64,000 bases of DNA from Thermincola carboxydiphila. Lineage in GTDB: Bacteria; Bacillota; Thermincolia; Thermincolales; UBA2595. This document shows positions 3,596-17,899 of the stretch, piece after piece; positions within the stretch are counted from its first letter, which is position 1, and each line of letters opens with the position of its first letter. The translations under genes were made by a program, and so were the position numbers. Location of the stretch: contig JAENYP010000001.1 of the NCBI GenBank assembly GCA_016841725.1, positions 124,001 through 188,000 of the forward strand, written 5' to 3'. Below the pieces are notes generated by a model that was not told where the DNA came from, did no database searches, and was given only the letters and a program-made list of their open reading frames with translations.

Positions 3596-3705
3596 TTTCG
3601 GGATGTATCTCCTGTCCATTTCTGCCATTTCCTGAAACAACCTGTTTAGTAAGGCATCAGGGGCACTTGTAAACAATTTCTTCCTGCCTATTTCGGTGTG
3701 TTTCT

Positions 3706-3733
3706 GTCGTGGTTGTCGTATCTATTGTCGTAT
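3706..3733. repeat. GTCGTAT repeats, candidate integrase arm sites (left end)
   Basis: GTCGTAT occurs at 3715-3721 and 3727-3733, 12 bp apart, with a third imperfect copy (GTCGTGG) at 3706. The same pair recurs at the other end of the element (17786-17805), in the same orientation. Repeats of this kind inside both ends are expected for integrase arm-type binding sites. Confidence 0.6.
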
Positions 3734-3865
3734 GAACCTAACAATTCTTCCCCCTTCTCCCTCTTCTTGTACCGCAAAAACCTTACCACATAAGCCATTG
3801 GACAACCTTTTTAATGCGTTGAACAAGCACCCAAAACGAACGGGTAAACGAACGAATAAAAGGAA

Positions 3866-3888
3866 GCAGCGTATGGGGCAGCGTATGG
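3866..3888. repeat. Two tandem copies of GCAGCGTATGG
   Basis: Perfect 11-bp direct repeat at 12-bp spacing (3866-3876 and 3878-3888), about 130 bp inside the left arm sites. It may bind an excision or accessory factor. The rest of 3600-3950 shows no supported gene. Confidence 0.5.
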
Positions 3889-3955
3889 TTAAACCTCAAT
3901 TATCCTTTTTAACATACCAAAGTTACATTTCGCTGTAAACATGTGGTTTTATCTT

Positions 3956-3982
3956 ACAAAAAAGAAGGGGATCACTCCCCTT
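3956..3982 (-). terminator. Terminator of the leftmost element gene
   Basis: A 7-bp stem (AAGGGGA / TCCCCTT) with a minus-strand T run directly follows the gene ending at 3995. Confidence 0.7.
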
Positions 3983-3994
3983 TGCTTACTGCCT

Positions 3995-4198
3995 CTATCC
4001 GGCCTCCCTGGCCGATTTTTTCTCTACACTCAGCATCAACTCTGCCAGTTTTTTTCTCGCCTGTTCCGCTTCTTCCGCATTATCGTTAAATATGGTTGTG
4101 ATTTCACAGTTGCCGATTCGCGAATGAAGTACTGTACCGCAGCCTGGTTTAAGGTTTGGTTTATCGTAGAAGGACTCTTTAGTTTCCCCTGTTTTCAT
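3995..4198 (-). CDS. Small hypothetical element protein (67 aa)
   Basis: I do not recognise this protein. It has a mixed N-terminus with HSRIGNCEITTIFNDNAEEAEQARKKL and ends in a charged, probably helical segment (ARKKLAELMLSVEKKSAREAG). The ATG at 4198 is chosen because a GGGGG site lies 8 bases upstream; a GTG at 4207 overlaps that site. It is last in a row of small leftward genes (HTH protein, ImmA-like peptidase, this gene), and has its own terminator. Confidence 0.6.
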   Translation of the reverse strand: MKTGETKESFYDKPNLKPGCGTVLHSRIGNCEITTIFNDNAEEAEQARKKLAELMLSVEKKSAREAG

Positions 4199-4270
4199 GC
4201 GATCCACCCCCTTTCTTTATTATCTGCCCCTAGTATAACTGATTATAGGGCGGCCCCAATAGATGTCCAC

Positions 4271-4298
4271 AAAAAGGAAAGGGGATTGCTCCCCCTTT
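4271..4298 (-). terminator. Terminator after the ImmA-like gene
   Basis: A 7-bp stem (AAAGGGG / CCCCTTT) with a minus-strand T run lies immediately after the stop at 4301. Confidence 0.7.
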
Positions 4299-4300
4299 CT

Positions 4301-4753
4301 TTAAGCCGCCTTTTCCTTTGCTTCTGCAATTGCTGTTTCAGTCACCTTCTGCCCTTCCGGGCTTTTAATAGCACTTCTCATTGCATCTAAATCTAATTCC
4401 TTACCATTTTTGATTAGCTTAACTGCACAGTGACCGAAAAAGGTTGCCTCCCATTCTATTCTGTCATGATATTCCTCCTCATGGTCATAAGCTGCAAAAT
4501 CCATTTCGTCTCTATGTAATACTGAATGACCTAATTCATGGGCAAGAGTAAGATTCACGTCAGGACTTTCAATGTCAATTACTATGATTTCTTTGCCATT
4601 ATATTTAGTCCATGCACCGTTAATTTTTTTCCCTTTATTATTCCTTAGTCCACTGACCAAATAAGCCTCTATTCCTCTTTCTTGAATGGCATTAAATAAA
4701 ACGTCCCAAACGATATCACCGGTATTACCTTCAAGTTTGCCCAATAGTTCCAT
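4301..4753 (-). CDS. ImmA/IrrE-family metallopeptidase
   Basis: Zinc-dependent endopeptidase of the ImmA/IrrE type; in integrative elements such proteins cleave a phage-type repressor and trigger excision. The HExxH motif is present as LAHELGHSVLHRD near residue 75, and downstream acidic residues (EWEATFFGHCAVKL) sit where the third zinc ligand is expected. It is 150 residues long. Start ATG at 4753 has AAGGAGGGG 6-8 bases upstream; longer readings have no ribosome site. Its natural partner would be one of the XRE/HTH proteins of this element (15081 or 4872), but it lies at the opposite end from the XRE gene, which is unusual for an immA-immR pair. Confidence 0.85.
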   Translation of the reverse strand: MELLGKLEGNTGDIVWDVLFNAIQERGIEAYLVSGLRNNKGKKINGAWTKYNGKEIIVIDIESPDVNLTLAHELGHSVLHRDEMDFAAYDHEEEYHDRIEWEATFFGHCAVKLIKNGKELDLDAMRSAIKSPEGQKVTETAIAEAKEKAA

Positions 4754-4774
4754 ATTACCCCTCCTTGTTTTCTG

Positions 4775-4820
4775 GCCCACAAGGAGATATAATAAAAATA
4801 TCCATGGTCCCCTTGTGGGC
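4775..4820. repeat. Inverted repeat between the HTH gene and the ImmA-like gene
   Basis: Ten-base arms GCCCACAAGG / CCTTGTGGGC are separated by 26 bases. No T run follows, so an attenuator, processing site or operator is as likely as a terminator. Confidence 0.45.
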
Positions 4821-4871
4821 TTTGGTGTTCGAGTGGTAGTCTGTGCCGCCAAGCTAACGACTGCCACTCCT

Positions 4872-5045
4872 TTAATTTTCCTTGATGAATTTTTCAAGGT
4901 CACTTTCTTTTACTCGCCAATCTCCACGAGTACCAATTTTCACCCCTTTCAATTTTCCATCCCTTAACCATCCCTTGATAGTCCTTACCGACAAATTTAG
5001 TGCTTCTGCAACTTGAGCCGGTGTTAGAAGTTTTTCGGTAACCAT
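4872..5045 (-). CDS. Excisionase-like HTH protein (57 aa)
   Basis: Single MerR/HTH_17-type helix-turn-helix domain: LLTPAQVAEALNLSVRTIKG followed by the wing WLRDGKLKGVKIGTRGDWR and a C-terminal helix DLEKFIKEN. This size and fold is typical of excisionases and AlpA-like activators that control integrase direction. ATG at 5045 has AAGGAGG 9 bases upstream; a GTG three codons earlier overlaps the ribosome site. TATAAT-like boxes lie 20-40 bases upstream on the minus strand. It sits near the left end of the element, about 1.3 kb from the left arm sites. Confidence 0.85.
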   Translation of the reverse strand: MVTEKLLTPAQVAEALNLSVRTIKGWLRDGKLKGVKIGTRGDWRVKESDLEKFIKEN

Positions 5046-5174
5046 TTTTGACACCTCCTTACATATTATACTTTAACTATACATTTATTATACTGTTTTT
5101 ATACGTTAATTGTCAAGATATTTTATTTATGAATAAAAAAAGACATGGTTCCCCTTGGATTTACCAAGTAATAA

Positions 5175-5229
5175 GTACCCCACATGTACCCCACATGTAC
5201 CGTACTAATACCGTACAAGTACCGTACTA
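5175..5229. repeat. Five tandem 11-bp iterons
   Basis: Five head-to-tail units with no spacer: GTACCCCACAT twice, then GTACCGTACTA, ATACCGTACAA and GTACCGTACTA. The period equals about one helical turn, so bound proteins would line up on one face. They lie upstream of the excisionase-like gene and downstream of the late-type operon. The rest of 5046-5460 has no supported gene. Confidence 0.75.
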
Positions 5230-5460
5230 GCATTGTGAAAGAATATGCCACTTCAATATGTTTGCAATTGATATTATGGGTTTACCCCTTCTCTAGTTTT
5301 CCCTAGTAGAAACGGCCTATTTTATGCCCAAAAATGCAATATACCCCTCAGAAGCCATATTTTGCCCTGTATTGAGTTTGACCCCCTTTTGACTATAATC
5401 ACCTTGCCGAATACCTGTTCGCCATGCAGGAAATTAACCAGGCTGTCGTTAGGGTACAAA

Positions 5461-5495
5461 AATAAAAAACGGTCCTGGTTCATGTACCAGGACCG
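5461..5495 (-). terminator. Terminator of the small membrane protein gene and late-type operon
   Basis: Perfect 9-bp stem (CGGTCCTGG / CCAGGACCG, 8-base loop) followed on the minus strand by a T run. Confidence 0.85.
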
Positions 5496-5502
5496 CCTTA
5501 TT

Positions 5503-5682
5503 TTAGTGTTTTGGTTTTCTATCAGTCAATGAACAAAATAAGCCAGCAATTGCAGCTACCACAACTATTGCTAAAAGTCCATAAATTATAATTGCGTTAT
5601 CTGACTCCGTTAAATCACCAACATAAAACAAGGCCAACAATACCGCCAGGAAGTAGATGTACTTTAATACCCTTTTTAACAT
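5503..5682 (-). CDS. Small two-helix membrane protein (59 aa)
   Basis: Reverse-strand frame starting MLKRVLKYIYFLAVLLALFY, with GAGGTGG about 7 bases before the ATG. Two hydrophobic segments (about residues 8-21 and 31-50) are separated by an acidic turn (GDLTESD), and the tail is basic (TDRKPKH). The size and topology suit a phage holin-like or superinfection-type membrane protein, but no lysis enzyme is present, so function is unassigned. It has its own terminator on both sides. Confidence 0.75.
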   Translation of the reverse strand: MLKRVLKYIYFLAVLLALFYVGDLTESDNAIIIYGLLAIVVVAAIAGLFCSLTDRKPKH

Positions 5683-5735
5683 AGTAAACCACCTCGAATC
5701 ATTCTATTCAACGCATAAAGCAAAATACCTTCTAA

Positions 5736-5762
5736 AAAGAAAAAGACACCCCGGAGGGTGTC
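5736..5762 (-). terminator. Terminator after the large polyvalent-type gene
   Basis: Seven-bp stem (GACACCC / GGGTGTC, loop of 4) with a minus-strand T-rich run lies 2 bases past the stop codon. Confidence 0.8.
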
Positions 5763-5764
5763 AA

Positions 5765-8700
5765 TTATCTGTTCTGTATCTTTTGCAGTTCTTGGTTAAG
5801 TTCTGGTCGCAGTGCTTTTGGAACCCGTTTTAATGCTTCCATAAGTTGTTGTTCCTTGGTTTTTGGATTCTTAAGTTCGTTAATTGCATTGGTTATTTGC
5901 GTATCTGACAGTTTGGAGGCGGCCTTCTTTAACTTATCCATGTTCGCTGCTGTTTTGTTCGCCTCATACTGTTTGTAAGCTTCTATGAAATCATATCGTG
6001 CTTTGTTTCTGACTTCTTCACTCGTGTACTCATAAATCTTATTTTCTATTTCTTTCTGCTTGAGCTGTGCAGGATTTACGACCCTGCCACCAAGCGGCCT
6101 TAATGGTAAGGGCTTATTTGAAGCACCGTACTCCCTCTCATCCATCCACTGCATACCTTTACTCACCGGTGGTACAAGTGATTTTAATAAATGTTTCCCG
6201 CGTATCTTCACCGCTTCTGGAGTGCCTTCAAGTTCCCTCGGAACAATGGTATAACCCCTCCAATCTTTATTTCTAGCAAGTTCGAACGGCCCTCTGATAA
6301 ACGGTGTTGCTAAATCCCAGGCAGCTCCTGCGGGGCCCGTGGCAATGTCTTTACCTTGTTTCTTTAATGCTTCCCCGATTGTTAGTTCGCCTGAGAAATA
6401 CCTTGCCACAGTGTCAGGTACAGTATGTAATCCGACCATTGAAGCTGCTATTGCTCCGGAAAACGGTATTGGAATAATGACATGGCCACCGTCTTTAGTT
6501 TGTATCCCTGTTATAAGATGCGGGTTTTCCCGCCAGTAATCAGGCAAGTTTTTCTCCACTTCAGGAAACATCACCCTGTTCCATACCGTTAATGCAGCCA
6601 TTGGCATAAATACCCTTGCAAGGCCATATAAAGGCTTCTTAGCAACCATTGAGGCATAGCTCTTAAAGTTCTGCGTGTACCATGTAATAAACGGAAACCA
6701 GAACTTTTTAGCTGCTTCAGTGTTTTTACTTAGCATATTATAATCAACCATTGTTTCCCGGCCTATCTTCGCGATAGCTTCTTCAGGAAGTAAGCCTTCG
6801 ACATCAACCGCAAACCTATTTTTCAAGGTTTTACCTGCTTGCTGCCTTTCCTGGTTTAATAGGTGTGCAGCAATCCTTGGAACAGCTTCACGATAAACCC
6901 GCCACCGCTGATAAAGTGATAACGGGTTATAATAGGCCATTTTTCCCGCCGGTCCGGCAAGTTCCCTGAGTTTAGGAGAACTAAACTTGCCAGTGCTATA
7001 CATATATACTTCACTTGAGAAAACTCCTTGTTTTAATAACTCCTTCAATCCGGGGTCTTTGTCCTTAATCATTTTAATTGCTCTTACAACCATGCCCGGC
7101 ATTTCTTTAGTACCTAGGCCAGTTGTGAACCTGTCCAGATCACCAATAAGGTTAAACCAGTCATGCTTTAAGCCCGGCATTAATACGGCAACCTTTTTCC
7201 ACCACCTGGTATAGTCTTGCAGTACTTTGGAAATCTCAGTTTCTATATTGTTTTTCCGGAAGTTGTTTAACCTGTCAGCAACCTCGGCCGGCAGAACAAA
7301 TGTCGGTTTTTTCTTGCCTACTACTAACCCCTCTTTAGTAGCCTGCCCTATTATTGTTTGAACCTCCAAGGGTAATTGTTCGGCAAGAGCTTTCTGAATC
7401 CCGCTTTCTGTTATTGTCAGCGAAGGATAGAAATAATTGCCGGTATCCGGCTGCCATGCCTTATAGCTTTTCCCATTGTATGTTTGAGGCACTCCGGTTC
7501 TCCGGATTCGTTCAATTACTTCACCAGGTACACCTGCCTTTTTAGTGTAATCCTCACCTATCTTGGCAAGGTTCTCTATTGAATCATCAATAGCATTATC
7601 TATCTTGACCTTGGTTAAAAGGTTGTGCATAGAGTCAATGTAATCCGTAGCAATTGGTTTTGAGGATCCCTTACGCCTTTGCACATAACCTCTGAATGGA
7701 GTCTTTAATTTCTCCGGCAACCCCGGTATCCTCTCGTCTAACAATTGCCCGTATTCAAACAACACCTTATGAGGGAAGTAATTTTCTCTGATAGCCTTTT
7801 CGGACATTTTCCCACGGGTCACCAAGTCCTCTGCCATAGCGTTAACTACTTCCAAATGCCTTTCATAAGCCCGTTTAAGCTTAGGGGTCAAGTATTCACT
7901 TACATTATTAAGCTCTTTACTAACCTGCTCGGATGTTAAATCAAACGGAATTTTTTCTCCCCTTCGTAAACTTTCAAGCCAATCCTCATAAACAACTTTA
8001 CGCGTAAATAAATCCATGTCAGCCCGGTTAACATCACCCAGTATGCCTTCCAATGTTTCAGTAGCCTCCATGCGGGACATGCTAGGTATCTCCTTTGCAT
8101 ACCGTATATGCTCACGCACCCGGGGGTAGTCCTTTATGGTTGGCTCAATTTGGCTGTCAGCAACTAATTTGCTTATTCTTTGCCCTATGTTTTCCCATAC
8201 TGATAAAAAGGGCTTTTGACCTGCCTTTACCGCTTCTTCCACTTCAGATATAGCGGGTTTGTACTCTCTAAGGACATCTTTTCCCCCGATAACCTTAATC
8301 CCTTGGCCCAATACCGGCGTAGTGGATTCCTTCAGTCCATTTGTTACTTCATTTCGGTGCTTAGATGTTATTTCATTAAGATAACTCTGCTCTGTCATAG
8401 GTTTTACAATTGACTCTGAAGACCTTGGTACTTCGATTGTCTTTTTAAACTGCAACTGCGGCAGAGGAGGCTTTTGTTCTGGTAACTTCGGCTTTCCTAG
8501 CATCCAATCAACTTGTCCGATCGTTTTAGTCGGTACACTGGCAGGTTTTTGCAATTTTGGTCCAAGATAATTTCTTACCGCAGGGCCTAACCCTGCTTTC
8601 TTTGTTTGCAGTTCTCCTCTCAGTGTTTGAGCGGCTTTTTGTTCTGCCTGCTCTATCCTTGCGACCGCTCCTCTTAGATTAACGCCTGCTGCCCTTTCTG

Positions 8701-9817
8701 CCTGGGCTAATGCTTCTTCAATAGTGGTTCCCGGAGGAGATTTTGCCAATACGTCATAATGACCTAAATAATTCTGGATTGCTTCTACAGCGGAGTTATA
8801 ACCTTCTATAGCTTTCTGCAACTCATTTTGAACATCAGGTTTACTGAATTTCCGTGGTTTTGCTATGTTAGCCGAAGGACCCTCAGCAGGAGGCAATGGT
8901 AACGTTTCCACTGAAACTTCCAAAGGCTCGATTTTGCCCTTGGCAAGGCTAGACCTTATCCTTTTTGCTAATGGGGATAGTGCCTTTCCTATCAACCCGG
9001 CCCCAACGTCAAACCCGGCCCACAGTGCAGCTTCTTTTCCTGCTTCAAGTGGCACTTCACGCAGCGGTACATCATTTGCCAGTGCTTTACCGGTTCCGTA
9101 TGCCGCTCCCATAGATGCCCCCTGCAAAGCTCTTCCTCCCCATTCTGCAACTTTAGGAGAGGCTTTTGAAAATACCAGTGGGGTTAATCTGTCCCCGCCA
9201 ATTTTTCCCGCTCCAAGCAACGCTCCTGCAGGCCCGGGGCCTGATAACCCTGTGCGTCCCGGGCCAGCCATTAATCCCATAATAGTACCGGCTAATTCCC
9301 CGGTAATGTCAGCGGCCTTGTTTCCGGTTGTGGGTTTTGGTATGCTCTCCCATTCTTTAGGGTCCAACATCATAGTTTGGTGTATTGCCCTTTGTGCCAC
9401 ATCAGCAATATTTCCCTTTTCTCCTGGTGTTGACGGTGCAAGCCCTGTCCTTACCAAGCGATCCTGAATTTCTTCGGGTGACATTTGTAGTTTTCCGGCC
9501 TTAAAATCCTTCCGCGTATCTGTCCACGATTCTTTAATGGCCTTTAAGGGATGCCTGAAAAAGTTAGTAACTTCTTCACCATTAACTGTCCGGGTATCTG
9601 TAAGTAAAGAAGATTTGTCCACTGTGCTTTTAGGTTTTAGTGTCGGCAAAAAGTCCATTTTTCTTTTATTTGACGTACGGCTAGCATTCATGTAACTTGA
9701 AAAACTACCGCCACTAGAAGGTTTTTCATCTTGTATGCCCAACACTTCAAAATCTATATCAACCGTGGAAGTGTTTTTATTTCTATTCCTACCCATATAA
9801 CTTGAAAAACTGCCCAA
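5765..9817 (-). CDS. Very large phage-type polyvalent / ejection-type protein
   Basis: About 1350 residues. It resembles large polyvalent proteins of phages and mobile elements, thought to enter the host with the DNA. Visible parts: an N-terminus with GSFSSYM twice (first residues and about 34 residues later); a Gly/Ala-rich hydrophobic region near 180-285 (GELAGTIMGLMAGPG and following); a charged coiled-coil middle; and a C-terminal third with FWFPFITWYTQNFKSYASM and RVFMPMAALTVWNRVMFPEV, reminiscent of the LPD38-type domain. No nuclease or peptidase motif was recognised. TTG at 9817 (MGSFSSYM) has GGGGGTG six bases upstream; GTG at 9826 is the alternative. It follows the 9831 gene closely and ends a leftward operon beginning at the terS-like gene. 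Confidence 0.75.
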   Translation of the reverse strand: MGSFSSYMGRNRNKNTSTVDIDFEVLGIQDEKPSSGGSFSSYMNASRTSNKRKMDFLPTLKPKSTVDKSSLLTDTRTVNGEEVTNFFRHPLKAIKESWTDTRKDFKAGKLQMSPEEIQDRLVRTGLAPSTPGEKGNIADVAQRAIHQTMMLDPKEWESIPKPTTGNKAADITGELAGTIMGLMAGPGRTGLSGPGPAGALLGAGKIGGDRLTPLVFSKASPKVAEWGGRALQGASMGAAYGTGKALANDVPLREVPLEAGKEAALWAGFDVGAGLIGKALSPLAKRIRSSLAKGKIEPLEVSVETLPLPPAEGPSANIAKPRKFSKPDVQNELQKAIEGYNSAVEAIQNYLGHYDVLAKSPPGTTIEEALAQAERAAGVNLRGAVARIEQAEQKAAQTLRGELQTKKAGLGPAVRNYLGPKLQKPASVPTKTIGQVDWMLGKPKLPEQKPPLPQLQFKKTIEVPRSSESIVKPMTEQSYLNEITSKHRNEVTNGLKESTTPVLGQGIKVIGGKDVLREYKPAISEVEEAVKAGQKPFLSVWENIGQRISKLVADSQIEPTIKDYPRVREHIRYAKEIPSMSRMEATETLEGILGDVNRADMDLFTRKVVYEDWLESLRRGEKIPFDLTSEQVSKELNNVSEYLTPKLKRAYERHLEVVNAMAEDLVTRGKMSEKAIRENYFPHKVLFEYGQLLDERIPGLPEKLKTPFRGYVQRRKGSSKPIATDYIDSMHNLLTKVKIDNAIDDSIENLAKIGEDYTKKAGVPGEVIERIRRTGVPQTYNGKSYKAWQPDTGNYFYPSLTITESGIQKALAEQLPLEVQTIIGQATKEGLVVGKKKPTFVLPAEVADRLNNFRKNNIETEISKVLQDYTRWWKKVAVLMPGLKHDWFNLIGDLDRFTTGLGTKEMPGMVVRAIKMIKDKDPGLKELLKQGVFSSEVYMYSTGKFSSPKLRELAGPAGKMAYYNPLSLYQRWRVYREAVPRIAAHLLNQERQQAGKTLKNRFAVDVEGLLPEEAIAKIGRETMVDYNMLSKNTEAAKKFWFPFITWYTQNFKSYASMVAKKPLYGLARVFMPMAALTVWNRVMFPEVEKNLPDYWRENPHLITGIQTKDGGHVIIPIPFSGAIAASMVGLHTVPDTVARYFSGELTIGEALKKQGKDIATGPAGAAWDLATPFIRGPFELARNKDWRGYTIVPRELEGTPEAVKIRGKHLLKSLVPPVSKGMQWMDEREYGASNKPLPLRPLGGRVVNPAQLKQKEIENKIYEYTSEEVRNKARYDFIEAYKQYEANKTAANMDKLKKAASKLSDTQITNAINELKNPKTKEQQLMEALKRVPKALRPELNQELQKIQNR

Positions 9818-9830
9818 ACTGTACACCCCC

Positions 9831-10817
9831 TTAACTTGCCGGTTTAAATGGCCCTAAAGGCTCAAGGTACATTGTTTGTCCTGGGAATACCCTTTCTATT
9901 TCAGCCATCAAAGCATTATAAACATCGGGATAATTTCTGTATTTTTCGATTGCTGCAACAGCTTTTTCTTTGGTAATGTCACCCTTTTCAACTTCACCGT
10001 AAAAGTCATTGACTTCATCGGTAATAATGCTTATTGTTTGGTTTGGGGTTAGAGTATATCCGCTTGAATTCCCCCCACCCCCGCTTGACCGCTGCGTTAA
10101 TGATCTGTTGCGGTAGGCATTGTTAGCAGTCATTTCTTCACGGGCCATAGTAGGCTTTCTTTCGCCTGTTACAGGGTCAACATAGTACCCGCTTAATCCG
10201 GATTCCTGTAGGCCAATAGTTTTACCCCACCGTTCATTATCAATTTTACGTTCGTCAAGATACCTTTGGTCTCCTATTTGGTCACGGCCCACCTGATAAC
10301 CATAGCCCCTGTCTGATTCAAACGCTCCACGGTTAGCCTGCCATGCCTGAAGTGCCTGGCTGAATAGTCTTGACTGTTCTTCTGCGTTCCTTTGGCGAAT
10401 GGCCTCGGTTAAATCCGCAACCATCCTTTGCTTCTCCGCTTCTATCGTTCCGGCAGTGTCAGCAGAGTACTGGAGTTGTCCCGGTTGACCGAAGAAACCG
10501 GAGTTCATGGTTTCATTCTTTACCCTTGTAAGAGCTTGCTGAAGGTTCTGTCTGTAGATAGGATCAACCTGACTTTCTGCCTGTGTCCGGGCAGATTCGT
10601 AAGAGATGGGCCTTTGTTTTGGTGCATTAAAAGATGACGGTGATTTTAACGAAGAAATAGAGCTAACCTGAAACAGGTCGGGCCGGGCCGCTTTAAAGGC
10701 TGCGGCTTCGTTTGGGTTAGACAATCCCGCAGGGGAAGATTCTTTTGCTTTTATCATGTTGGCGTATTGCTGGGCATCACCCTTGAAGTAATTCTTTAAA
10801 ATATTTTGATAAGCCAT
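9831..10817 (-). CDS. Putative phage structural / ejection-associated protein (328 aa)
   Basis: Not assigned to a named family. ATG at 10817 with AAAGGGTGA upstream. Residues 85-200 are rich in Gln, Arg and Glu with repeated helical heptads (QALTRVKNETM, AEKQRMVADLTEAIRQRNAEEQSRL), like rod-shaped internal virion or tail-associated proteins. The segment ESGLSGYYVDPVTGERKPT is followed by a Ser/Gly linker (RSSGGGGNSSGY) and a small C-terminal helical domain. The gene sits directly before the giant polyvalent-type gene, so the two may act together in particle loading or DNA entry. Confidence 0.65.
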   Translation of the reverse strand: MAYQNILKNYFKGDAQQYANMIKAKESSPAGLSNPNEAAAFKAARPDLFQVSSISSLKSPSSFNAPKQRPISYESARTQAESQVDPIYRQNLQQALTRVKNETMNSGFFGQPGQLQYSADTAGTIEAEKQRMVADLTEAIRQRNAEEQSRLFSQALQAWQANRGAFESDRGYGYQVGRDQIGDQRYLDERKIDNERWGKTIGLQESGLSGYYVDPVTGERKPTMAREEMTANNAYRNRSLTQRSSGGGGNSSGYTLTPNQTISIITDEVNDFYGEVEKGDITKEKAVAAIEKYRNYPDVYNALMAEIERVFPGQTMYLEPLGPFKPAS

Positions 10818-10832
10818 TTTATATCACCCTTT

Positions 10833-11258
10833 CTAATTTACTAAAACGGTTTCTTCCGAAACCAGGTCTATTATTTTTAGCACATGATTTGTTATAATCT
10901 CACAAATGTCATTATCAGAGAAATTCAACATACATCCTTCTTGAACCATGTTTCTTATGATGGAGTTCAATGCGGCAATTCGTTCCGGATAGGCAATTTT
11001 AATATCTTCAATAAATTTAGGAGTCACAGCCTCTGCATACATTATTTCAGAGTTCTGTAACTCTTCAATGAGTGTTTCTATGTTGTCATCATTCATGGCA
11101 AGCCAAGTACATACAAGAGCATAAATTCTTAAAGTATCGCTCAGTATTTGAAGAAAGTCTTTTCTGCCATAAAAAAAGGGCCAAATATGGCCTCTTATTT
11201 CTTCCCTGAAATCCCTAATGTTTTCCTCTAAGTTAAACACGCTGCCAGCTACATTCAT
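10833..11258 (-). CDS. Hypothetical helical element protein (141 aa)
   Basis: I do not recognise a family. The protein is almost all helical with alternating hydrophobic and acidic stretches (DFLQILSDTLRIYALVCTWLAM, IETLIEELQNSEIMYAEAV) and no signal peptide. Its start overlaps the stop of the upstream paralogue by 4 bases (ATGA), so translation is probably coupled. It lies between the short paralogue array and the two large virion-type genes. Confidence 0.65.
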   Translation of the reverse strand: MNVAGSVFNLEENIRDFREEIRGHIWPFFYGRKDFLQILSDTLRIYALVCTWLAMNDDNIETLIEELQNSEIMYAEAVTPKFIEDIKIAYPERIAALNSIIRNMVQEGCMLNFSDNDICEIITNHVLKIIDLVSEETVLVN

Positions 11259-11515
11259 AGACTAACCTCCTTATTTTTGATGTCTCCGAACCGCTCCCCG
11301 TAAGCAATCATGTCTATCCACCTTTCACCCGAACCGTTACGGTTCTTTTTAAGTTCCTCAAATTCGGCTAACGTATATGAAACTCGCTCACTCTGTGACA
11401 TCCCGATAATATGTCCTGGATTCTCATAGTCCTTGATATATATGGTTAACCTGTTTTCTGCGTTATTGCCCCTTAAATTTTTTTCTATTTTAGCAAGTCT
11501 ACTTTTTAACTTCAT
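11255..11515 (-). CDS. Short paralogue 5 of the N-helix family
   Basis: Fifth member of a tandem family sharing an N-terminal amphipathic helix, here MKLKSRLAKIEKNLRG, followed by an unrelated C-terminal part (NRLTIYIKDYENPGHIIGMS ...). ATG at 11515 is preferred: AAAGG lies 10 bases upstream, while a TTG six bases earlier overlaps the preceding stop. The C-terminal half begins with a beta strand like those of paralogues 2 and 3 (TVVIVQMND, FCIVYKHNN). Function unknown. Confidence 0.7.
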   Translation of the reverse strand: MKLKSRLAKIEKNLRGNNAENRLTIYIKDYENPGHIIGMSQSERVSYTLAEFEELKKNRNGSGERWIDMIAYGERFGDIKNKEVSL

Positions 11516-11517
11516 AA

Positions 11518-11739
11518 TCAACTTACCTTTCCATGGATAAAGAAATCCTCCAGCTTATGCTTTGACTTCATTCGCTCAATTCGTTCTCTTACTTCCAATG
11601 GATATGACAAATATCTATTTAAACGCTCTTCCCAATCATCTTCGAAGAAATCCTCCAATAATAGTGGTTTTATGTCATTCGGCACTAACAACTTTTCGGC
11701 TTGCTTTTCCAGCTTATTGATCCGAGATTGTATATTCAT
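11518..11739 (-). CDS. Short paralogue 4 of the N-helix family
   Basis: N-terminus MNIQSRINKLEKQAEKL matches paralogues 1 and 2 closely. The rest is acidic and helical (LLLEDFFEDDWEERLNRYLS, LEVRERIERMKSKHKLEDFF) instead of beta-strand like its siblings. ATG overlaps the upstream stop by ATGA, and AGGGGG lies 7 bases before it. Function unknown; a coiled-coil docking helix with a variable body is the simplest reading. Confidence 0.7.
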   Translation of the reverse strand: MNIQSRINKLEKQAEKLLVPNDIKPLLLEDFFEDDWEERLNRYLSYPLEVRERIERMKSKHKLEDFFIHGKVS

Positions 11740-11963
11740 TCATTTTCCCCCCTTACATTATTGGGCCTGGGAATATCTATATTTATTATGAACGTGTTTT
11801 TACTATCAAGGTCAACCAACTTCATTCCTTCTTCGATTGGACCATTGAAGCCTAGTGAAGGAATATTCATCGTGTTATTGTGTTTATAGACAATGCAGAA
11901 AACCTCTTTACTGTCTACTCTCAATGATTTTTCAATATTATCAATTCTTTTTTTTAACTTCAT
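11736..11963 (-). CDS. Short paralogue 3 of the N-helix family
   Basis: N-terminus MKLKKRIDNIEKSLR, then a beta-rich body (EVFCIVYKHNNTMNIPSLGF, MKLVDLDSKNTFIINIDIPR). The ATG at 11963 overlaps the stop of the upstream gene (ATGA) and gives the family N-terminus at residue 1; a longer frame adds eight unrelated residues. Translationally coupled on both sides. Confidence 0.7.
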   Translation of the reverse strand: MKLKKRIDNIEKSLRVDSKEVFCIVYKHNNTMNIPSLGFNGPIEEGMKLVDLDSKNTFIINIDIPRPNNVRGENE

Positions 11964-12190
11964 CCGGCACACTCCAAATCGTCCCAAATGATTGTTGAGC
12001 CGCCTTCATAGAAAGGTGTTAGAAATGTCTCAATGTCTTTTAATATGCCGTCATATACAACCTTACCCGATTCTAGAACCTCCCATATTCCAGTTTTATC
12101 ATTCATTTGAACTATAACAACTGTATTGAAAGGTCTAAATATCTTCCCTGCATCTTTCTCCAATTTTCGTATTCGAGACTGAACATTCAC
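11960..12190 (-). CDS. Short paralogue 2 of the N-helix family
   Basis: Starts MNVQSRIRKLEKDAG with a GTG codon that shares one base with the upstream stop (TAGTG). The body is NTVVIVQMNDKTGIWEVLES and FYEGGSTIIWDDLECAG, predicted beta-rich. Ten of its first eleven residues are identical to paralogue 1, which is strong evidence for recent tandem duplication of the N-terminal part only. Confidence 0.72.
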   Translation of the reverse strand: MNVQSRIRKLEKDAGKIFRPFNTVVIVQMNDKTGIWEVLESGKVVYDGILKDIETFLTPFYEGGSTIIWDDLECAG

Positions 12191-12372
12191 TATGTCCTAC
12201 CCTCCAATTCATTCAAAGAATTTTCAAGTGCTTCACCAAACTCTGGTAAACATATAATTTCTTGTTCCATTTCCAAGGCTCCATAAACGTCTTCTATGCA
12301 GACACACCCTTGTTTATTTGTTTTGATGGCAATATTCTCTTCTAATTTGCGTATGCGAGACTGAACACTCAT
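12190..12372 (-). CDS. Short paralogue 1 of the N-helix family (60 aa)
   Basis: Begins MSVQSRIRKLEENIAIKTNK and continues with a short acidic body containing one Cys pair (GCVCIEDVYGALEMEQEII). The start overlaps the terS-like stop (TAATG). It is the first gene behind the small terminase, so the family may serve packaging or particle assembly; this is inferred from position only. Confidence 0.7.
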   Translation of the reverse strand: MSVQSRIRKLEENIAIKTNKQGCVCIEDVYGALEMEQEIICLPEFGEALENSLNELEGRT

Positions 12373-12770
12373 TATTTTCGGCCCTCCTTCTCAATGAATT
12401 CTTCAAGTTTCTCAATGCGTTCTATGATCTCTTCTTGTTCGTATGCCTTCCAACCCATTTCACAGATTGCCCTTGCCGCCGTTACCCTGGCCGTTGTAGG
12501 TGCTTCTTTGTCCTGGTGAATATCTTCCAAGGTTTTAAAAGCATCAGTAAACCCCTTCTGTGCCAAAGTAACAGCCTGCCGCATAACTTCTTTTCTTGAC
12601 TTACTCAACGCTTCTTTAAAATTATCCTGCCTCAACCACCGGTAAATGTTAGATTCAGCTATCCCAGACTCCTGAGAGGCCTCTCGAATTGTCTTGTTGT
12701 TGATAAGGGCAATAATGGCCTGGGTTTGTTCCGTTGTTAATCCCTCAAAAATCTCAGCATTGTCTGTCAT
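12372..12770 (-). CDS. Small terminase subunit-like HTH protein (phBC6A51 type)
   Basis: Resembles the phBC6A51-like HTH / small terminase family: LTTEQTQAIIALINNKTIRE, a helix-turn-helix ESGIAESNIYRWLRQDNFKE near residue 40, then helices with ALSKSRKEVMRQAV, ARVTAARAICEMGWK and a C-terminal coiled coil (IIERIEKLEEFIEKEG). Small terminases recognise the pac site and hand DNA to the large terminase, which is absent from the element. Satellites of the SaPI/PICI type use their own TerS to redirect a helper's terminase, and this gene could do that. ATG at 12770 with GGAGGCAGGTGAT upstream; first gene of the leftward operon. Confidence 0.72.
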   Translation of the reverse strand: MTDNAEIFEGLTTEQTQAIIALINNKTIREASQESGIAESNIYRWLRQDNFKEALSKSRKEVMRQAVTLAQKGFTDAFKTLEDIHQDKEAPTTARVTAARAICEMGWKAYEQEEIIERIEKLEEFIEKEGRK

Positions 12771-12855
12771 TTTCTATCACCTGCCTCCGTTTTTAAATGC
12801 GTTCACATTGCAGATGCAATGCAGGTGCATACATTTAATATTAGGTTCCCATGTT

Positions 12856-12874
12856 TTCCGGGAAGTTCCGGGAA
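12856..12874. promoter_or_regulatory. Tandem TTCCGGGAA sites upstream of the terS operon
   Basis: Two identical 9-bp near-palindromes (12856-12864, 12866-12874) at 10-bp spacing lie 86 bases before the small-terminase start. The helical-turn spacing suggests cooperative binding of an activator or repressor of the late-type operon. Confidence 0.5.
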
Positions 12875-13180
12875 TTTCATGTGTTCAACTATTGTTATAC
12901 TGTACCGCTTTTGTTTCCCTGGTTATTTTCCATAATGAGAACCTAATTATTGCTTACATTTCATTGGTTCATGTTAACATTAATCCCACTTCTGCAGCAG
13001 AAACCATGTTAGAAACCTTGTTACTCTGATTGTTAGCTTTTTTCTTCCGTCACTGTGAGCCGTTGATTATTGCCCATTCAGGCTATCCCTGTCTTTGTTA
13101 ATGCCTTTGTTAAGCATCCTGTTAGCTTTTTAGCTTACTGTCAGCGAATCCGTTGACACCCCCTCAACTAGTTGTATGAA

Positions 13181-13243
13181 TAAGGGGCCTGTGGTCAATT
13201 CCACCGCATAGAACTAAGTCTATACGCCCTGTGGAGCCCCTTA
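13181..13243. other. Complex inverted repeat, possible structured RNA or origin hairpin
   Basis: Outer arms TAAGGGGC (13181-13188) and GCCCCTTA (13236-13243) enclose a second dyad around ATAGAACT / AGTCTAT and a direct repeat CCTGTGG. It lies between the origin-like repeats and the late promoter region. Confidence 0.45.
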
Positions 13244-13416
13244 TAACCTCTTTTGACATGAATAATAATCTAATAAAGAAACCCATTAATAAACTATTGG
13301 GGATGGTATATATATAAAGGATGTACATTTTTAGCCCACTAAACGGAATTAATAAAAGTTGGTTATTTTGACCGTTCAAGTCCTGATTCTGTAAGGTTTA
13401 TTGACATTTTGTTGCT

Positions 13417-13514
13417 GGGCTATTTTTAGCCTACTAAAACTTAGTAATTATCAGGTTTTTAAGTGTTTTGTGGGCTAAATTTAGCCTACTTACTGGGCTA
13501 TTTTTAGCCTAGCC
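13417..13514. repeat. Origin-like iterons GGGCTAWWTTTAGCCTA
   Basis: Three direct copies start at 13417, 13472 and 13495. The middle one contains the perfect palindrome GGCTAAATTTAGCC. A fourth, partial copy (TTTTTAGCCCACTAAAC) is near 13328. The last copy overlaps the 3' end of the initiator-like gene, a usual arrangement for iterons and their Rep protein. Confidence 0.65.
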
Positions 13515-13924
13515 TTTTTATTTTTGGTTGCCGTAGAATCCCTTTTACGGCGGGGGTCTATCTTGAATTCTGGTGTTCCATACTTCTGCCACATAGAGCT
13601 AAACCCGTATATATTACACTCTCTGCTTGTCCAGGACTGCCGTATTACCTTTATGAAGCCATATTCTATTAGTTCATCTATGGCCTTTGTGAAGGTGTTC
13701 TTGTGCATTAGCTTTTGCCCCTCGGCGTAAGTAAGAGATATATCGTTTTCATTATTAAAGTTGTACTTTGATTTCATGTACATATAAACAACCATTGCAT
13801 GACAGCTTAACTTTTTCCAGGCAGCCGATTCTAGCATATTGTTAGTTATCCGCAAGTGTTTAGCGGTTTTTGTTTTACTCTCAAAGGGTTTAAACTCAAA
13901 ATCTTTCTTGCTCTTTTTAGCCAT
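13490..13924 (-). CDS. Winged-helix replication initiator-like protein (144 aa)
   Basis: Small basic protein with one winged-helix domain: RITNNMLESAAWKKLSCHAM, VYMYMKSKYNF, then a recognition region LMHKNTFTKAIDELIEYGFI and the wing KVIRQSWTSRECNIYGFS. This layout is common in replication or relaxosome proteins of Firmicute mobile elements. ATG at 13924 with GGGGGTGA 4 bases upstream. The adjacent iterons, one of which forms its last codons, support a role in origin recognition. A pure transcription regulator is the alternative. Confidence 0.65.
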   Translation of the reverse strand: MAKKSKKDFEFKPFESKTKTAKHLRITNNMLESAAWKKLSCHAMVVYMYMKSKYNFNNENDISLTYAEGQKLMHKNTFTKAIDELIEYGFIKVIRQSWTSRECNIYGFSSMWQKYGTPEFKIDPRRKRDSTATKNKKARLKIAQ

Positions 13925-14089
13925 TTCTTCACCCCCGCTCTGGGTTATAAAAAGGGGGACAGGAGAAAGAGCGGTTTTCCCCTGTTTTACGCCTGGCCGG
14001 GCAACCCCTTTTTACCATGTACTGCAAAATAAAAAAGCTCTCTGACATATGCCAAAGAACCTCTACTTTTGGGTTTCTTCTTTATTGAT

Positions 14090-14470
14090 TTACATTAACG
14101 TAAGTTGTACCGGTTTATCTTGTTTAGGAACTTCTGGCTGTTCCCAATATCGCAAAGGCACATACATTCGCCGCCCAAACCTACCAATTGAACGAATTAC
14201 CGCATACTTCTTGAAGGTGTCGGTATCAATAAAGTATTTTTCACCAGTATCTTTAACCCGCAATTCTATACGTTTACACCCTTGGGCAAATACGTCATCC
14301 ATATATGAGGTATCAAATCCGTAACTATCCAAGACTAGCAACTTGTCACGGCGTTCAACTATCTTCTTAAAGACCCCTCCAGGTGTTAGATTTCCTGCAA
14401 CGATTTTCCTACCTTTGTACGAAACATGAATCGGGATTGATTTTCCTTTAGATTTTGGTATACTGTTCAT
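14090..14470 (-). CDS. Hypothetical element protein (126 aa)
   Basis: Unrecognised. It is basic and beta-rich: SIPIHVSYKGRKIVAGNLTP, FKKIVERRDKLLVLDSYGFD, CKRIELRVKDTGEKYFID, and ends RMYVPLRYWEQPEVPKQDKP. No catalytic motif is clear. ATG at 14470 with AAAGGAG 13 bases upstream. It overlaps the upstream gene by 23 bases, so the two are co-transcribed, in the early leftward group with the HTH proteins. Confidence 0.65.
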   Translation of the reverse strand: MNSIPKSKGKSIPIHVSYKGRKIVAGNLTPGGVFKKIVERRDKLLVLDSYGFDTSYMDDVFAQGCKRIELRVKDTGEKYFIDTDTFKKYAVIRSIGRFGRRMYVPLRYWEQPEVPKQDKPVQLTLM

Positions 14471-14792
14471 AGGTAAATATTTCTCCTTTCGTTCCTCCAG
14501 TGCCAGCTGGGGGATTTTGTTTTTCTTCCATCGTTATATGTCTTATAGCAGCCTGCGGAGTTTTATCAGGGATCCCATATTTGTTCTTGCCATGAATAAA
14601 TGCCCCAGCTTCTTCAGCTAATTCTTTTAATCGTTTGTCGTTAAAAGTGGCTTCCACTTCTGATACTATTTGTGCTGTAGACTTTTCTATGTACCTCTTT
14701 TTGTTTTTCCCTCTATGTTTATTTTTCCGCATTTTGGGCAAACCGCTCCCTTTCAAAAACCCGAACAATCCACCATTATTGGTAACGTTCAA
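14448..14792 (-). CDS. Hypothetical basic element protein (up to 114 aa)
   Basis: Unrecognised. The N-terminal third is very basic (MRKNKHRGKNKKRYIEKS), followed by a helix IVSEVEATFNDKRLKELAEE and the stretch GKNKYGIPDKTPQAAIRHIT. The start is uncertain: the longest frame begins with a TTG at 14792 without a clear ribosome site; an ATG at 14732 would give the basic N-terminus directly. It overlaps the next gene, and the next upstream gene ends 15 bases away. Confidence 0.55.
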   Translation of the reverse strand: MNVTNNGGLFGFLKGSGLPKMRKNKHRGKNKKRYIEKSTAQIVSEVEATFNDKRLKELAEEAGAFIHGKNKYGIPDKTPQAAIRHITMEEKQNPPAGTGGTKGEIFTYEQYTKI

Positions 14793-14807
14793 AGGCGTAT
14801 TATTCTT

Positions 14808-15059
14808 TTATACTTCTTGCATCTCAAGCCATCTTCGAAGAGCATCTCGCCCAACAACTTTTTTTCTTCCAATCCGGAGACCGGGGAACCCTGGCATTTC
14901 CCATAAGCCATAAACATGATCCCGCCCGAGTGTCCCCTTCGGCAATATCTTTAATATCCACTCGGCATTCAACAGTAAGGGAAGACTCTCCCAATCAGTG
15001 ATTAACTCTTTTTTAAGCGGGACCACTTTTCCCGGTTGATTTTTTACAGCTAAATTCAT
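14808..15059 (-). CDS. HTH_17/excisionase-like DNA-binding protein (83 aa)
   Basis: Contains a MerR-like HTH with wing: LLLNAEWILKILPKGTLGRD, YGLWEMPGFPGLRIGRKKVV and DALRRWLEMQEV. The ATG at 15059 follows GGGGGG by 8 bases; a GTG nine bases upstream overlaps that site. The position right after the XRE gene is typical for the second early gene (Cro/Xis-like) of temperate elements. Confidence 0.75.
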   Translation of the reverse strand: MNLAVKNQPGKVVPLKKELITDWESLPLLLNAEWILKILPKGTLGRDHVYGLWEMPGFPGLRIGRKKVVGRDALRRWLEMQEV

Positions 15060-15080
15060 TTGTTCCACCCCCCGTGCCTT

Positions 15081-15311
15081 CTACATAGCCTCAGCATTAT
15101 TTTTTATAATATCTCCAACTGATATAGAAGCGAGCAATTCACTTATAGGTTTATTAAACTCTTTTTCTAAACGTTCTTTTACAGCCGCTGATGGAACAAG
15201 TCTACCGTTCTCTAATAACGAGTACCACGGTAAAGACATTTCTAATCTTCCTGCTACCTGACCCTGATTTTCTCCCCTCGCTAAGCGAATAGCTTTTAGA
15301 TTGGTAAGCAT
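15081..15311 (-). CDS. XRE-family repressor-like protein (76 aa)
   Basis: Cro/CI-type helix-turn-helix: LKAIRLARGENQGQVAGRLE, MSLPWYSLLENGRLVPSAAV and KERLEKEFNKPISELLA. It has only the DNA-binding domain, without a C-terminal cleavage or dimerisation domain, so it resembles Cro more than CI. ATG at 15311 with GGGAGGG 8 bases upstream. It is transcribed away from the 15473 gene across a 161-bp switch region with a repeated operator-like sequence. Confidence 0.85.
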   Translation of the reverse strand: MLTNLKAIRLARGENQGQVAGRLEMSLPWYSLLENGRLVPSAAVKERLEKEFNKPISELLASISVGDIIKNNAEAM

Positions 15312-15346
15312 TTAATACCCTCCCTCAAACATTATACTGTGTTGAC

Positions 15347-15436
15347 TAATAGATTATACTAAATTCTATTTGTCTTTATTGTAATATTCCTTGTAAAAAA
15401 TATCAAGTAGTGTATAATAGATAATAGATTATACTA
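15347..15436. promoter_or_regulatory. Divergent switch region with twin 15-bp operators
   Basis: TAATAGATTATACTA occurs at 15347-15361 and 15422-15436. The second copy is part of a dyad ATAATAG-N6-CTATTAT. Each copy overlaps or adjoins a TATAAT-like box of one of the two divergent promoters, as expected for repressor operators. Confidence 0.65.
15391..15418 (+). promoter_or_regulatory. Sigma-A promoter for the DUF6076-int operon
   Basis: TTGTAA (15391-15396), 16-base spacer and TATAAT (15413-15418) with a TG one base upstream of the -10. The repeated operator starts 4 bases after the -10 box. Confidence 0.6.
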
Positions 15437-15472
15437 TTATTCTATTAATACATTTGTCGGGAGGGGTTAAGT

Positions 15473-16534
15473 ATGAGCGGTATACAGGAATTGCCCAAAA
15501 TGGAAATTACGTTTATTGATGGAGATTTCGAAACGATCCAATCAGGGAAACTATCGAAAACTTCGTCTGAAGATGGTAGGTTTAACGGTGAATATATAAT
15601 ATCAGTTTATGGACCGGCTTATAAGAAACCTACTGGGACATTGTTAATAGAATTTCTGGAAATTGATTTCACGAAACATGATTCCTTCAACTTATTTATT
15701 AATAAGTGGGGCATTAGTGGATTAGCGGAACATTCAGCAACTGCAAAAGGAGTTTTATTAATAGAGTATAGTGAAAAAGAATATCAAAAAATGCTAAATG
15801 ATATTTGGATTGAATGTGGGTACATCCTTGAACAAATTCAAGAGAAATTTAAAAATGCCGTATATTACTGTCTCGATATTAATGGCCCCGAATGGTCAGA
15901 TAACCTTGACCCGCTCCAAAGGTTCTTTTTAATGCAGGAAAGAAATAGCTCATTATTTGACTTTAAAGAGTACGGCACTAATTTGAGTGTACAGTTTGAA
16001 GTTGAACCCAAAATTAATGCAATGACTTATAAACAATATCAAAACTTTTATAACACAATATCGGATGGTAATCAGTCTGAGGCCGCAGGAATAATTAAAG
16101 GTATAAATTTTAAAACATCGGAAACTTACTTAAGCCCGGATATAGCCGCAATTCTATATCTAGAATTTAAGCAAATGATTTTAAATAACAAACTTATCAA
16201 ATTATGCGATAATTGCCAGAGGTATTTTATTCCCCCGCGTTCTAATGCTAAGTATTGTGACAGACCTTTAAGCGAAGAAGATCAGCGTACCTGTAGAACT
16301 GTAGGAGCGGTACAAAAACATATGAGGCGGGTTGACAACGACCCTTTAAAAGTAGCTTATAGAAAAGCATATAAATCCGCACATGCCAGAATTCATAGTT
16401 CTAAAACAATACAATACGACGAACGTGAAAGTGTTTTTCGTGCCTGGGTGGACGAAGCCAAGGCAAGAATAAAGGAAGTTGAAAAAGGGGAAATTTCTCT
16501 TGAACAATTTAACAAATGGGCAAAGGAGGGTTAA
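15473..16534 (+). CDS. Cys-motif (DUF6076-like) protein preceding the integrase
   Basis: 353 residues, AT-rich relative to the chromosome. The C-terminal part carries a probable zinc site: LCDNCQRYFIPPRSNAKYCD then TCRTVGAVQKHMRR, the arrangement of the DUF6076 family found beside integrases of clostridial elements. The N-terminal 200 residues have no motif I recognise. ATG at 15473 with GGGAGGGG upstream. It is followed by the integrase after two bases, so both are expressed from the switch promoter; a role in integration or repression control is plausible but not shown. Family name is from memory of the Cys pattern. Confidence 0.7.
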   Translation: MSGIQELPKMEITFIDGDFETIQSGKLSKTSSEDGRFNGEYIISVYGPAYKKPTGTLLIEFLEIDFTKHDSFNLFINKWGISGLAEHSATAKGVLLIEYSEKEYQKMLNDIWIECGYILEQIQEKFKNAVYYCLDINGPEWSDNLDPLQRFFLMQERNSSLFDFKEYGTNLSVQFEVEPKINAMTYKQYQNFYNTISDGNQSEAAGIIKGINFKTSETYLSPDIAAILYLEFKQMILNNKLIKLCDNCQRYFIPPRSNAKYCDRPLSEEDQRTCRTVGAVQKHMRRVDNDPLKVAYRKAYKSAHARIHSSKTIQYDERESVFRAWVDEAKARIKEVEKGEISLEQFNKWAKEG

Positions 16535-16536
16535 TA

Positions 16537-17715
16537 ATGGCAAAGAAAAAAGGTAAACGTCCACAAGGTGAGGGTTCAGTGTACCAACGCAAAGATGGTA
16601 AATGGGAATGTAAAATACCTGTCGGTAAGGACCCATCAACCGGCAAACTGAAGCGTAAAAGTTTTTATGGTGCATCCCAGGAGGAAGTCCGGAAAAAGCG
16701 AGATGAATATTTAACCCAAAAAAGGACAGGCACATATATTGAGCCATCTAAATTGACCGTGGGGCCGTTTGTAGGTGACTGGTTGAAGGTATTTGTTAAG
16801 CCCAATAAAAAAGCGGCCACCTACGCCAAATATGAGAGTGTCTATCTTACCCATATCAATAAAGACCTAGGTAATATCGAATTACAGAAACTAACTACCA
16901 TGAAGGTTCAGGAGTTTTATAATACTAAGGCCGCTAAGTTGTCCAGCAGTGCAGTTTCAATAATTCACATTGTTTTGCATGGGGCTATGGAGTATGCAGT
17001 AGAGGAAAAACTAATTCCTAAGAATCCGACAAGCAAAACTAAGCGGCCATCCGTCAAGCATAAAGAAGTGGTTGTAATGACTGAAGAAGAACTGCAAAAA
17101 TACCTCCTGGCAGCTAAAGAATATAGAATGTTTGCAGCCTTCTTTACCGCCTTAACTACCGGCCTACGCCGTGGGGAATTGTGTGCTTTACGTTGGAAGC
17201 ATATCGACTTCAAAAAGGAAATTCTTAAGGTAAGGGAATCCCTTAATCGCGTCCAGGTTGAACGGGGCAAAACTGAATTAAGGATTGATACTTTAAAAAC
17301 TGACAACGCTAAACGGGACATACCCCTCCTGCCCGAGACCATCAAGATACTTAAAGACCATAGGGAAAAACAGAAGAAGGAGCGGCAGGATATCGAAGGA
17401 GAAAATAAAGTAGTTGAACTCAAAGATAATAGTTTAGTATTCTGCACCGAGGAAGGCAAATTCTACGAACCCCGTAACCTTCTGAGACTGCATAAGGTAA
17501 TATTGAAAAAAGCCGGCTTGCGAACGGATATAAAAATTCACACCTTACGGCACCAATTCGCCACAATGCTTCTAAAGAAGAATGTGAATCTTAAATACAT
17601 CATTGATCTCCTGGGACATGCGGACGAAAGAATGGTATTGAGGACATATGGCCACAGTGACGACCAAGACCTGAAAAACGCTATCCTTGAACTTAAAGAC
17701 GTGATAAAAGCCTAG
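16537..17715 (+). CDS. int: Tyrosine recombinase (integrase)
   Basis: Site-specific recombinase of the Tn916/phage Int class. Order: N-terminal arm-binding domain with the AP2-like repeat region (GEGSVYQRKDGKWECKIPVG), core-binding SAM-like domain (TVGPFVGDWLKVFVKP onward), and catalytic domain with Arg in TTGLRRGELCALRW, HTLRHQFAT (His and Arg), LLGHADERM and the nucleophile Tyr in LRTYGHS near the C-terminus. All catalytic residues seem intact. ATG at 16537 with AAAGGAGGG; a longer reading into the upstream gene lacks a ribosome site. It lies 135 bases from the attachment repeat, at the side with the intact tRNA. Confidence 0.95.
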   Translation: MAKKKGKRPQGEGSVYQRKDGKWECKIPVGKDPSTGKLKRKSFYGASQEEVRKKRDEYLTQKRTGTYIEPSKLTVGPFVGDWLKVFVKPNKKAATYAKYESVYLTHINKDLGNIELQKLTTMKVQEFYNTKAAKLSSSAVSIIHIVLHGAMEYAVEEKLIPKNPTSKTKRPSVKHKEVVVMTEEELQKYLLAAKEYRMFAAFFTALTTGLRRGELCALRWKHIDFKKEILKVRESLNRVQVERGKTELRIDTLKTDNAKRDIPLLPETIKILKDHREKQKKERQDIEGENKVVELKDNSLVFCTEEGKFYEPRNLLRLHKVILKKAGLRTDIKIHTLRHQFATMLLKKNVNLKYIIDLLGHADERMVLRTYGHSDDQDLKNAILELKDVIKA

Positions 17716-17738
17716 TGAAAAACTAGGCTTATTTTTTG
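17708..17738 (+). terminator. Integrase terminator
   Basis: An 8-bp stem (AAGCCTAG / CTAGGCTT) that includes the int stop codon is followed by a run of T. Confidence 0.8.
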
Positions 17739-17785
17739 CCCAAAATAAAAAAACCGGTCCATTTGGCCGGTAGAAAATGCTAGTT

Positions 17786-17805
17786 GTCGTATTTTAGTGT
17801 CGTAT
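17786..17805. repeat. GTCGTAT repeats, candidate integrase arm sites (right end)
   Basis: Two copies of GTCGTAT (17786-17792, 17799-17805), 13 bp apart and in the same orientation as the pair at 3715-3733. Confidence 0.6.
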
Positions 17806-17810
17806 AGAAA

Positions 17811-17840
17811 TAAAAAAAGCTCTCATGCAAAATTGAGAGC
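17811..17840 (-). terminator. Element-borne replacement terminator for tRNA-Val
   Basis: A 7-bp stem (GCTCTCA / TGAGAGC) followed on the minus strand by seven T. It sits inside the element just past the tRNA 3' end and differs from the displaced host terminator at 3508-3537. Confidence 0.75.
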
Positions 17841-17849
17841 CTTACTCTT

Positions 17850-17899
17850 TCAATTGGTGGGCGAGAGAAGAATTGAACTTCCGACCTCTTCCGTGTCAA
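17850..17899. repeat. Right attachment repeat within tRNA-Val
   Basis: Second copy of the 50-bp repeat, identical to 3546-3595, ending exactly at the 5' edge of the anticodon loop. Confidence 0.95.

Follow-up and report, generated by a model that had tools for sequence, protein, structure and literature searches.

The window, a 64,000-nucleotide stretch of the Thermincola carboxydiphila genome, includes a satellite-like element flanked by direct repeats at positions 3546-3595 and 17850-17899, the latter of which falls in the 3' part of a tRNA-Val (gac) gene (Table 1). These att repeats were located by direct-repeat search, and an att search with a guessed tRNA pattern gave no match. The gene content comprises an integrase, regulators, a replication-type gene and a small terminase (TerS) gene, and no capsid, portal, tail or TerL gene was recognised in a family search of the main ORFs. 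By its genes and repeats, the element would class as a complete phage satellite of the PICI type. A syntenic element occurs in another genus (G009, HGW-Firmicutes-14; loci L006/L011), with the TerS protein of locus L006 sharing 61 % identity with that of the window.

The TerS-like protein can be assigned by sequence to the terminase small subunits (PHROG 3218 match), and it recovered Streptococcus satellites in a tblastn search (E 2e-10). Directly 3' of its gene, on the minus strand, five short genes follow in tandem in the transcription order p1 to p5. On the far side of this array two larger proteins are encoded, a 1353-aa LPD38-type protein and a 328-aa protein, which may be carried inside the virion or injected, an unusual satellite cargo. 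Scans of viral contigs with these two proteins and with TerS found no relatives. The phage-like cluster of genome G005 that matches the 328-aa protein includes a giant ORF and a TerL gene as well. The slot between the array and the 328-aa gene is occupied by different, unnamed proteins in the two elements (window 10833-11258; L006 9606-9821). Two sets of repeats were further observed in the window: a 22-nt palindromic-looking repeat (TTGCTGGGCTATTTTTAGCCTA) present three times within 13412-13511, near the 3' end of the replication-type gene, and a perfect 15-nt repeat (TAATAGATTATACTA) at 15347-15361 and 15422-15436, between divergent repressor-like and DUF6076 genes, which is a possible operator.

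Table 1. Features of the satellite-like element and its gene array (window coordinates; L006, syntenic element in G009)
Feature	Position	Strand	Description
Integrated satellite-like element	3546..17899		14.3 kb between 50-nt perfect direct repeats
1353-aa protein	5765..9826	-	Weak LPD38 match; 65 % identical in L006; outside array
328-aa protein	9831..10817	-	N-terminal ~48 residues match protein in G005 phage-like cluster; outside array
p5	11255..11515	-	86 aa; N-helix + body; start MKLKSRLAKIE
p5 N-helix	11474..11512	-	Codons 2-14
p4	11518..11739	-	73 aa; N-helix + acidic LEDFF-type body; start MNIQSRINKLE
p4 N-helix	11698..11736	-	Codons 2-14
p3	11736..11963	-	75 aa; N-helix + predicted bbbab body; start MKLKKRIDNIE
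p3 N-helix	11922..11960	-	Codons 2-14
p2	11960..12190	-	76 aa; GTG start; N-helix + predicted bbbab body; start MNVQSRIRKLE
p2 N-helix	12149..12187	-	Codons 2-14
p1	12190..12372	-	60 aa; N-helix + GCVCIED body; start MSVQSRIRKLE
p1 N-helix	12331..12369	-	Codons 2-14
TerS-like small terminase	12372..12770	-	132 aa; PHROG 3218 terminase small subunit, E 2.8e-9
TerS C-terminal tail	12387..12428	-	Residues 115-128, IIERIEKLEEFIEK; R-hxxhE in same register as N-helices
Tyrosine integrase	16516..17715	+	PF00589, E 8.6e-26

Five genes with a common N-terminal helix

A preliminary description of this locus had read the five genes as a tandem series behind the TerS-like gene with a common N-terminal helix, and their starts indeed read as it described. 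The overlaps of one to four bases that it reported hold from TerS to p4 (TerS/p1 and p1/p2, 1 nt each; p2/p3 and p3/p4, 4 nt each) but not for p4/p5, which are separated by a 2-nt gap with the ATG start at 11515 and would overlap, by 4 nt, only with a start at the TTG upstream of it (11521). The segment common to p1-p5 is limited to the first ~14 residues, and in all five helices it forms the coiled-coil motif R-hxxhE with a/d (d-a-d-a) spacing. The strict form of the motif, R-[ILVM]-x-x-[ILV]-E within the first 20 residues, a count that does not depend on weight-matrix training, is present in 5/5 array proteins. Among window ORFs that lie outside the element and encode 110 aa or more it occurs in 0/73, and among Streptococcus-satellite CDS in 2/299, these two being neighbours of TerS. 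With a helix weight matrix the starts of p1-p5 outrank every other start position of the window ORFs, a ranking that shows separation only, as the matrix was trained partly on p1-p5.

Pfam and PHROGs searches returned no convincing family for p1-p5, phage records yielded no believable relatives of p2, p4 and p5, and phylum samples searched with p1 and p4 gave no convincing match beyond G009. In the latter genome, orthologues of p1 (L006:9186-9356; 48 % identity), p3 (L006:9353-9589; 32 %) and p4 (GTG start near 8967; 53 %) were found, while p2 and p5 had no orthologue in L006. The orthologues are arranged directly 3' of TerS in the order p4, p1, p3, which differs from the order in the window.

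The bodies (residue 16 onwards) of p1, p3 and p4 align with their L006 orthologues (z 21.3, 11.1 and 27.0, respectively), whereas every pair of paralogues within the array scores between z -1.3 and 1.4 against shuffles. The helices show the reverse pattern. The helix DNA of p1 and p2 is 78 % identical over 36 nt, compared to 44 % between p1 and its own orthologue, and that of p3 and p5 is 75 % identical over 36 nt, compared to 44 % between p3 and its orthologue. As the p1/p2 and p3/p5 helices are thus closer to each other than those of p1 and p3 are to their orthologues, there is a strong case, though not an overwhelming one given the shortness of the helix stretch, that helix and body are modules which evolve separately. 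Copying of helices onto bodies would account for this, as would the exchange of bodies behind a duplicated helix, and in both cases the evolution is separate. The constant helix on differing bodies that the preliminary description proposed is consequently upheld, as a segment of coiled-coil type which appears to move separately from the bodies.

The same description held that the five bodies all differ, which is borne out in that they share no sequence similarity with one another, but is overstated with regard to predicted structure. The AlphaFold (AF2) models of p2 (pLDDT 62; H3-14 E24-30 E35-40 E43-48 H50-62 E66-69) and p3 (pLDDT 71; H2-13 E21-26 E31-34 E39-42 H43-49 E57-62) agree, at modest confidence, in an H-bbbab order of structural elements; the alignment from which p2 was modelled includes a Streptococcus protein of unproven homology. 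Given this common order, p2 and p3 at a minimum may have distantly related bodies that share a fold. Both also have the same weak best BFVD match, a KTSC-domain protein; neither has a Pfam KTSC match, the Foldseek E-values (1.7e-3 and 0.21) do not fall below 0.001, and Foldseek of p3 against the PDB gave no match. In the p5 body, strand- and helix-like stretches alternate when judged by eye.

These observations bear on two simpler accounts of the array. Ordinary paralogy would hold that one family was duplicated repeatedly and that the bodies diverged past recognition while the helix stayed. The predicted order and weak BFVD match common to p2 and p3 would agree with this, but the p1 and p4 bodies look unlike the p2/p3 type by eye, and the helices resemble others of the same locus more than those of their orthologues, the opposite of what the bodies show. 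Since the bodies align to the L006 orthologues and not mutually, ordinary paralogy in the simple sense, which the preliminary description had named as the finding that would undo its proposal, is very unlikely. It is also conceivable that the 5' segment is conserved at the nucleic-acid level, through a role in translation or regulation, rather than as protein, given that two DNA repeats, D1 in the p1/p2 helices (58 nt, 76 %) and D5 in the p3/p5 helices (36 nt, 83 %), cover the start codons, and D1 the ribosome-binding site as well. This account is hardly credible, as the core codons 4-11 of p1 and p2 differ by four synonymous and no non-synonymous changes, which indicates that the protein sequence is what is kept and argues that the p1 and p2 frames are translated. 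A strong synonymous bias is likewise seen in the p2/p4 and p1/p4 helix cores, while the p3/p5 comparison is uninformative; in the orthologue comparisons pN is lower than pS, with pS near saturation.

Helices and TerS tails in other elements

The search for the N-terminal motif elsewhere that the preliminary description called for showed that the helix recurs beside TerS in distant satellites. In Streptococcus satellites, the genes touching TerS often start with a basic helix of the p1-p5 kind. When a matrix built from the window and L006 helices only was applied to sixteen Streptococcus satellites with a cut-off of >6 bits, matches were obtained for 10/47 TerS-adjacent genes and 3/236 others (Fisher 1.3e-6), or 8/42 against 3/236 (p 1.7e-5) without the ORFs added by the analyst; these satellites are akin, so that the counts and p-values overstate independence, and the adjacent matches represent around five kinds by eye. 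Shuffled TerS-adjacent N-termini produced a mean of 0.6 and a maximum of three matches in 1000 rounds. Examples are found in Javan294, 479, 147, 733 and 586. As in p1-p5, the helix occurs on at least two kinds of body in these satellites, which carry one or two such genes, annotated as hypothetical, compared to five in the window. Similar layouts therefore exist, and the claim that no described system shares this one was too strong; the literature searched, which was thin on subscription journals, held no description of such a helix and TerS-tail kit. Homology between the bodies of p1-p5 and those of the Streptococcus proteins was considered and is not established, with profile comparison probabilities of 0.6-8 %, aligned mostly over the helix, and p2 ranking second with E 0.27 for a body-only HMM.

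With a TerS profile, four more TerS genes were identified as strong matches in further families of the phylum (Firmicutes), and three of these have tails with the strict R-hxxhE motif. Beside or near these TerS genes lie helix-type genes (MTIKSKIERLEKKL, 15.2 bits; TEKRLAKIEENY; INKRLDEMD), the helix gene not being the immediate TerS neighbour at locus L077 and the neighbour being ambiguous at L080. The phrog_3218 TerS loci, which are mostly too distant, showed no helix-type neighbours. At three loci (L012, L029 and L033) a second, helical family of small proteins, hypothetical or unannotated, was observed beside TerS with a similar N-helix.

The TerS of the window itself ends in a tail with the R-hxxhE motif, and the strict form is present in 7/21 TerS tails examined. 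Tails and neighbouring helices were paired in a register chosen charge-blind, by hydrophobic spacing only. TerS tails in which the motif ends with E are paired with helices that have R, K or H as their first motif residue, the one exception being N in L074. Where the tail motif ends with R or K, the partner provides E at its first position unambiguously in L037, L039 and L042, as one of two ties in L036 and as one of three ties in L080; for the L038 partner, a homologue of the L036 one, the blind rule nevertheless yields K. The blind register of L037 and L042 lies three residues beyond that of the class alignment, with E in both registers. On the TerS tree, built without the tail, the two basic-tail groups stand apart, which implies at least two charge-change events on the TerS side; as the L038 and L080 registers are ambiguous, only one of these has unambiguous partners. 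Covariation of opposite charges between tail and helix, in at most two independent events, is thus suggested by these sequences.

A parallel is provided by TerL. The C-terminus of TerS binds TerL in lambda and P22, in the latter at a site within TerL residues 1-58 (PMC9611059). At locus L041, where the TerS tail reads ERLTALEE, the gene following TerS encodes a TerL (PF04466, E 2.1e-34) with the N-terminus KLEQRIAALEMAEK; this is a single case, and translation may in fact begin at an internal ATG. The L041 TerL (489-1871), from an unannotated gut phage record (MT836267), has an N-terminal extension of ~25 residues with R-hxxhE. An N-terminal helix of this kind was absent from TerL in eight other phages examined.

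Proposed docking role and comparison with known systems

Taken together, the motif, its recurrence beside TerS, the matching tail, the charge covariation and the TerL parallel favour an interpretation in which the N-terminal segment is a TerL-like docking segment. The R-hxxhE segment would act as a short coiled coil that binds the C-terminal helical tail of TerS, that of the satellite itself and possibly also that of a helper phage, so that p1-p5 would present a segment imitating the TerL N-terminus. They would then represent alternative TerS partners, packaging adaptors or competitors through which the assembly of the terminase would be altered, redirected or blocked, and the different bodies would perform different jobs. 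We assign this reading, in which the binding, its target and the packaging role are inferred from sequence, a probability of roughly 0.45. The loading of small proteins into particles, which the preliminary description had put forward, is unsupported; gene position, motif and charges are all indicative of TerS.

The main rival of docking is self-trimerisation, by which p1-p5 would form homo- or heterotrimers through R-hxxhE in a manner unrelated to TerS. The motif specifies parallel trimers and is chiefly a homotrimer motif (PMC3653964), all five helices carry complete R...E motifs that could pair mutually, and the genes are co-expressed in one overlapping array. Self-assembly nevertheless leaves the motif in the TerS tail and the recurrence beside TerS unexplained, and in many Streptococcus helices the charged pair is R..R or K..K, so that the homotypic salt bridge is missing, with E available in the TerS tail. 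It can be considered possible but somewhat unlikely as the sole explanation, and the two are not exclusive. The helix may alternatively bind the TerS, TerL or portal of the helper and hinder helper packaging, its likeness to the satellite TerS tail being incidental. Satellites are known to encode such interference proteins, including Ppi (PMC6893505) and Rpp, which binds helper TerS (PMC6739421). A helper target nonetheless appears quite unlikely, considering that the charges covary with the satellite's own TerS and that a helper search via TerL in 21 genomes found no PF04466 or PF03237 match in the element's own genome (G000).

A wider and more tentative proposal, which we would not favour over its negation, is that satellites in several lineages of Firmicutes use a charge-coded pairing of TerS tail and helix, with the helix traded among unrelated bodies to give plug-in terminase kits. 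If true, many unnamed small genes beside satellite TerS would gain a function, the comparison of tail and helix charges would give a testable rule as to which protein joins which terminase, and the kit would be a natural example of exchangeable parts built on a single docking helix.

The proposed docking resembles lambda and P22, where TerL is bound at its N-terminal residues by the C-terminus of TerS (PMC9611059), but in the window the N-terminal segment sits on small non-TerL proteins. The window helices have the exact R-hxxhE motif and g-a-d-e spacing of the trimerisation motif defined in PMC3653964, here as a sequence likeness. Ppi, CpmA and CpmB of the SaPIs are small proteins affecting helper packaging or capsid size, and the elements that carry them have their own TerS, like the window element (PMC6893505). 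They are set apart by description, in that the passages of that source consulted describe no shared N-helix, and no Pfam or PHROG family named for Ppi or CpmAB matched p1-p5. Rpp of the Gram-negative PICIs is similar in being a small satellite protein that contacts TerS and redirects packaging (PMC6739421). It differs in combining an N-terminal wHTH fold, which is absent from the predicted models of p2 and p3 (the two modelled), with a C-terminal dimerisation part, in binding the N-terminal domain of helper TerS and in not forming a tandem array, whereas the window proteins carry a 14-residue N-helix before unrelated bodies, with the TerS C-tail as proposed target. By analogy, the array possibly works like the Rpp- and Ppi-type packaging proteins.
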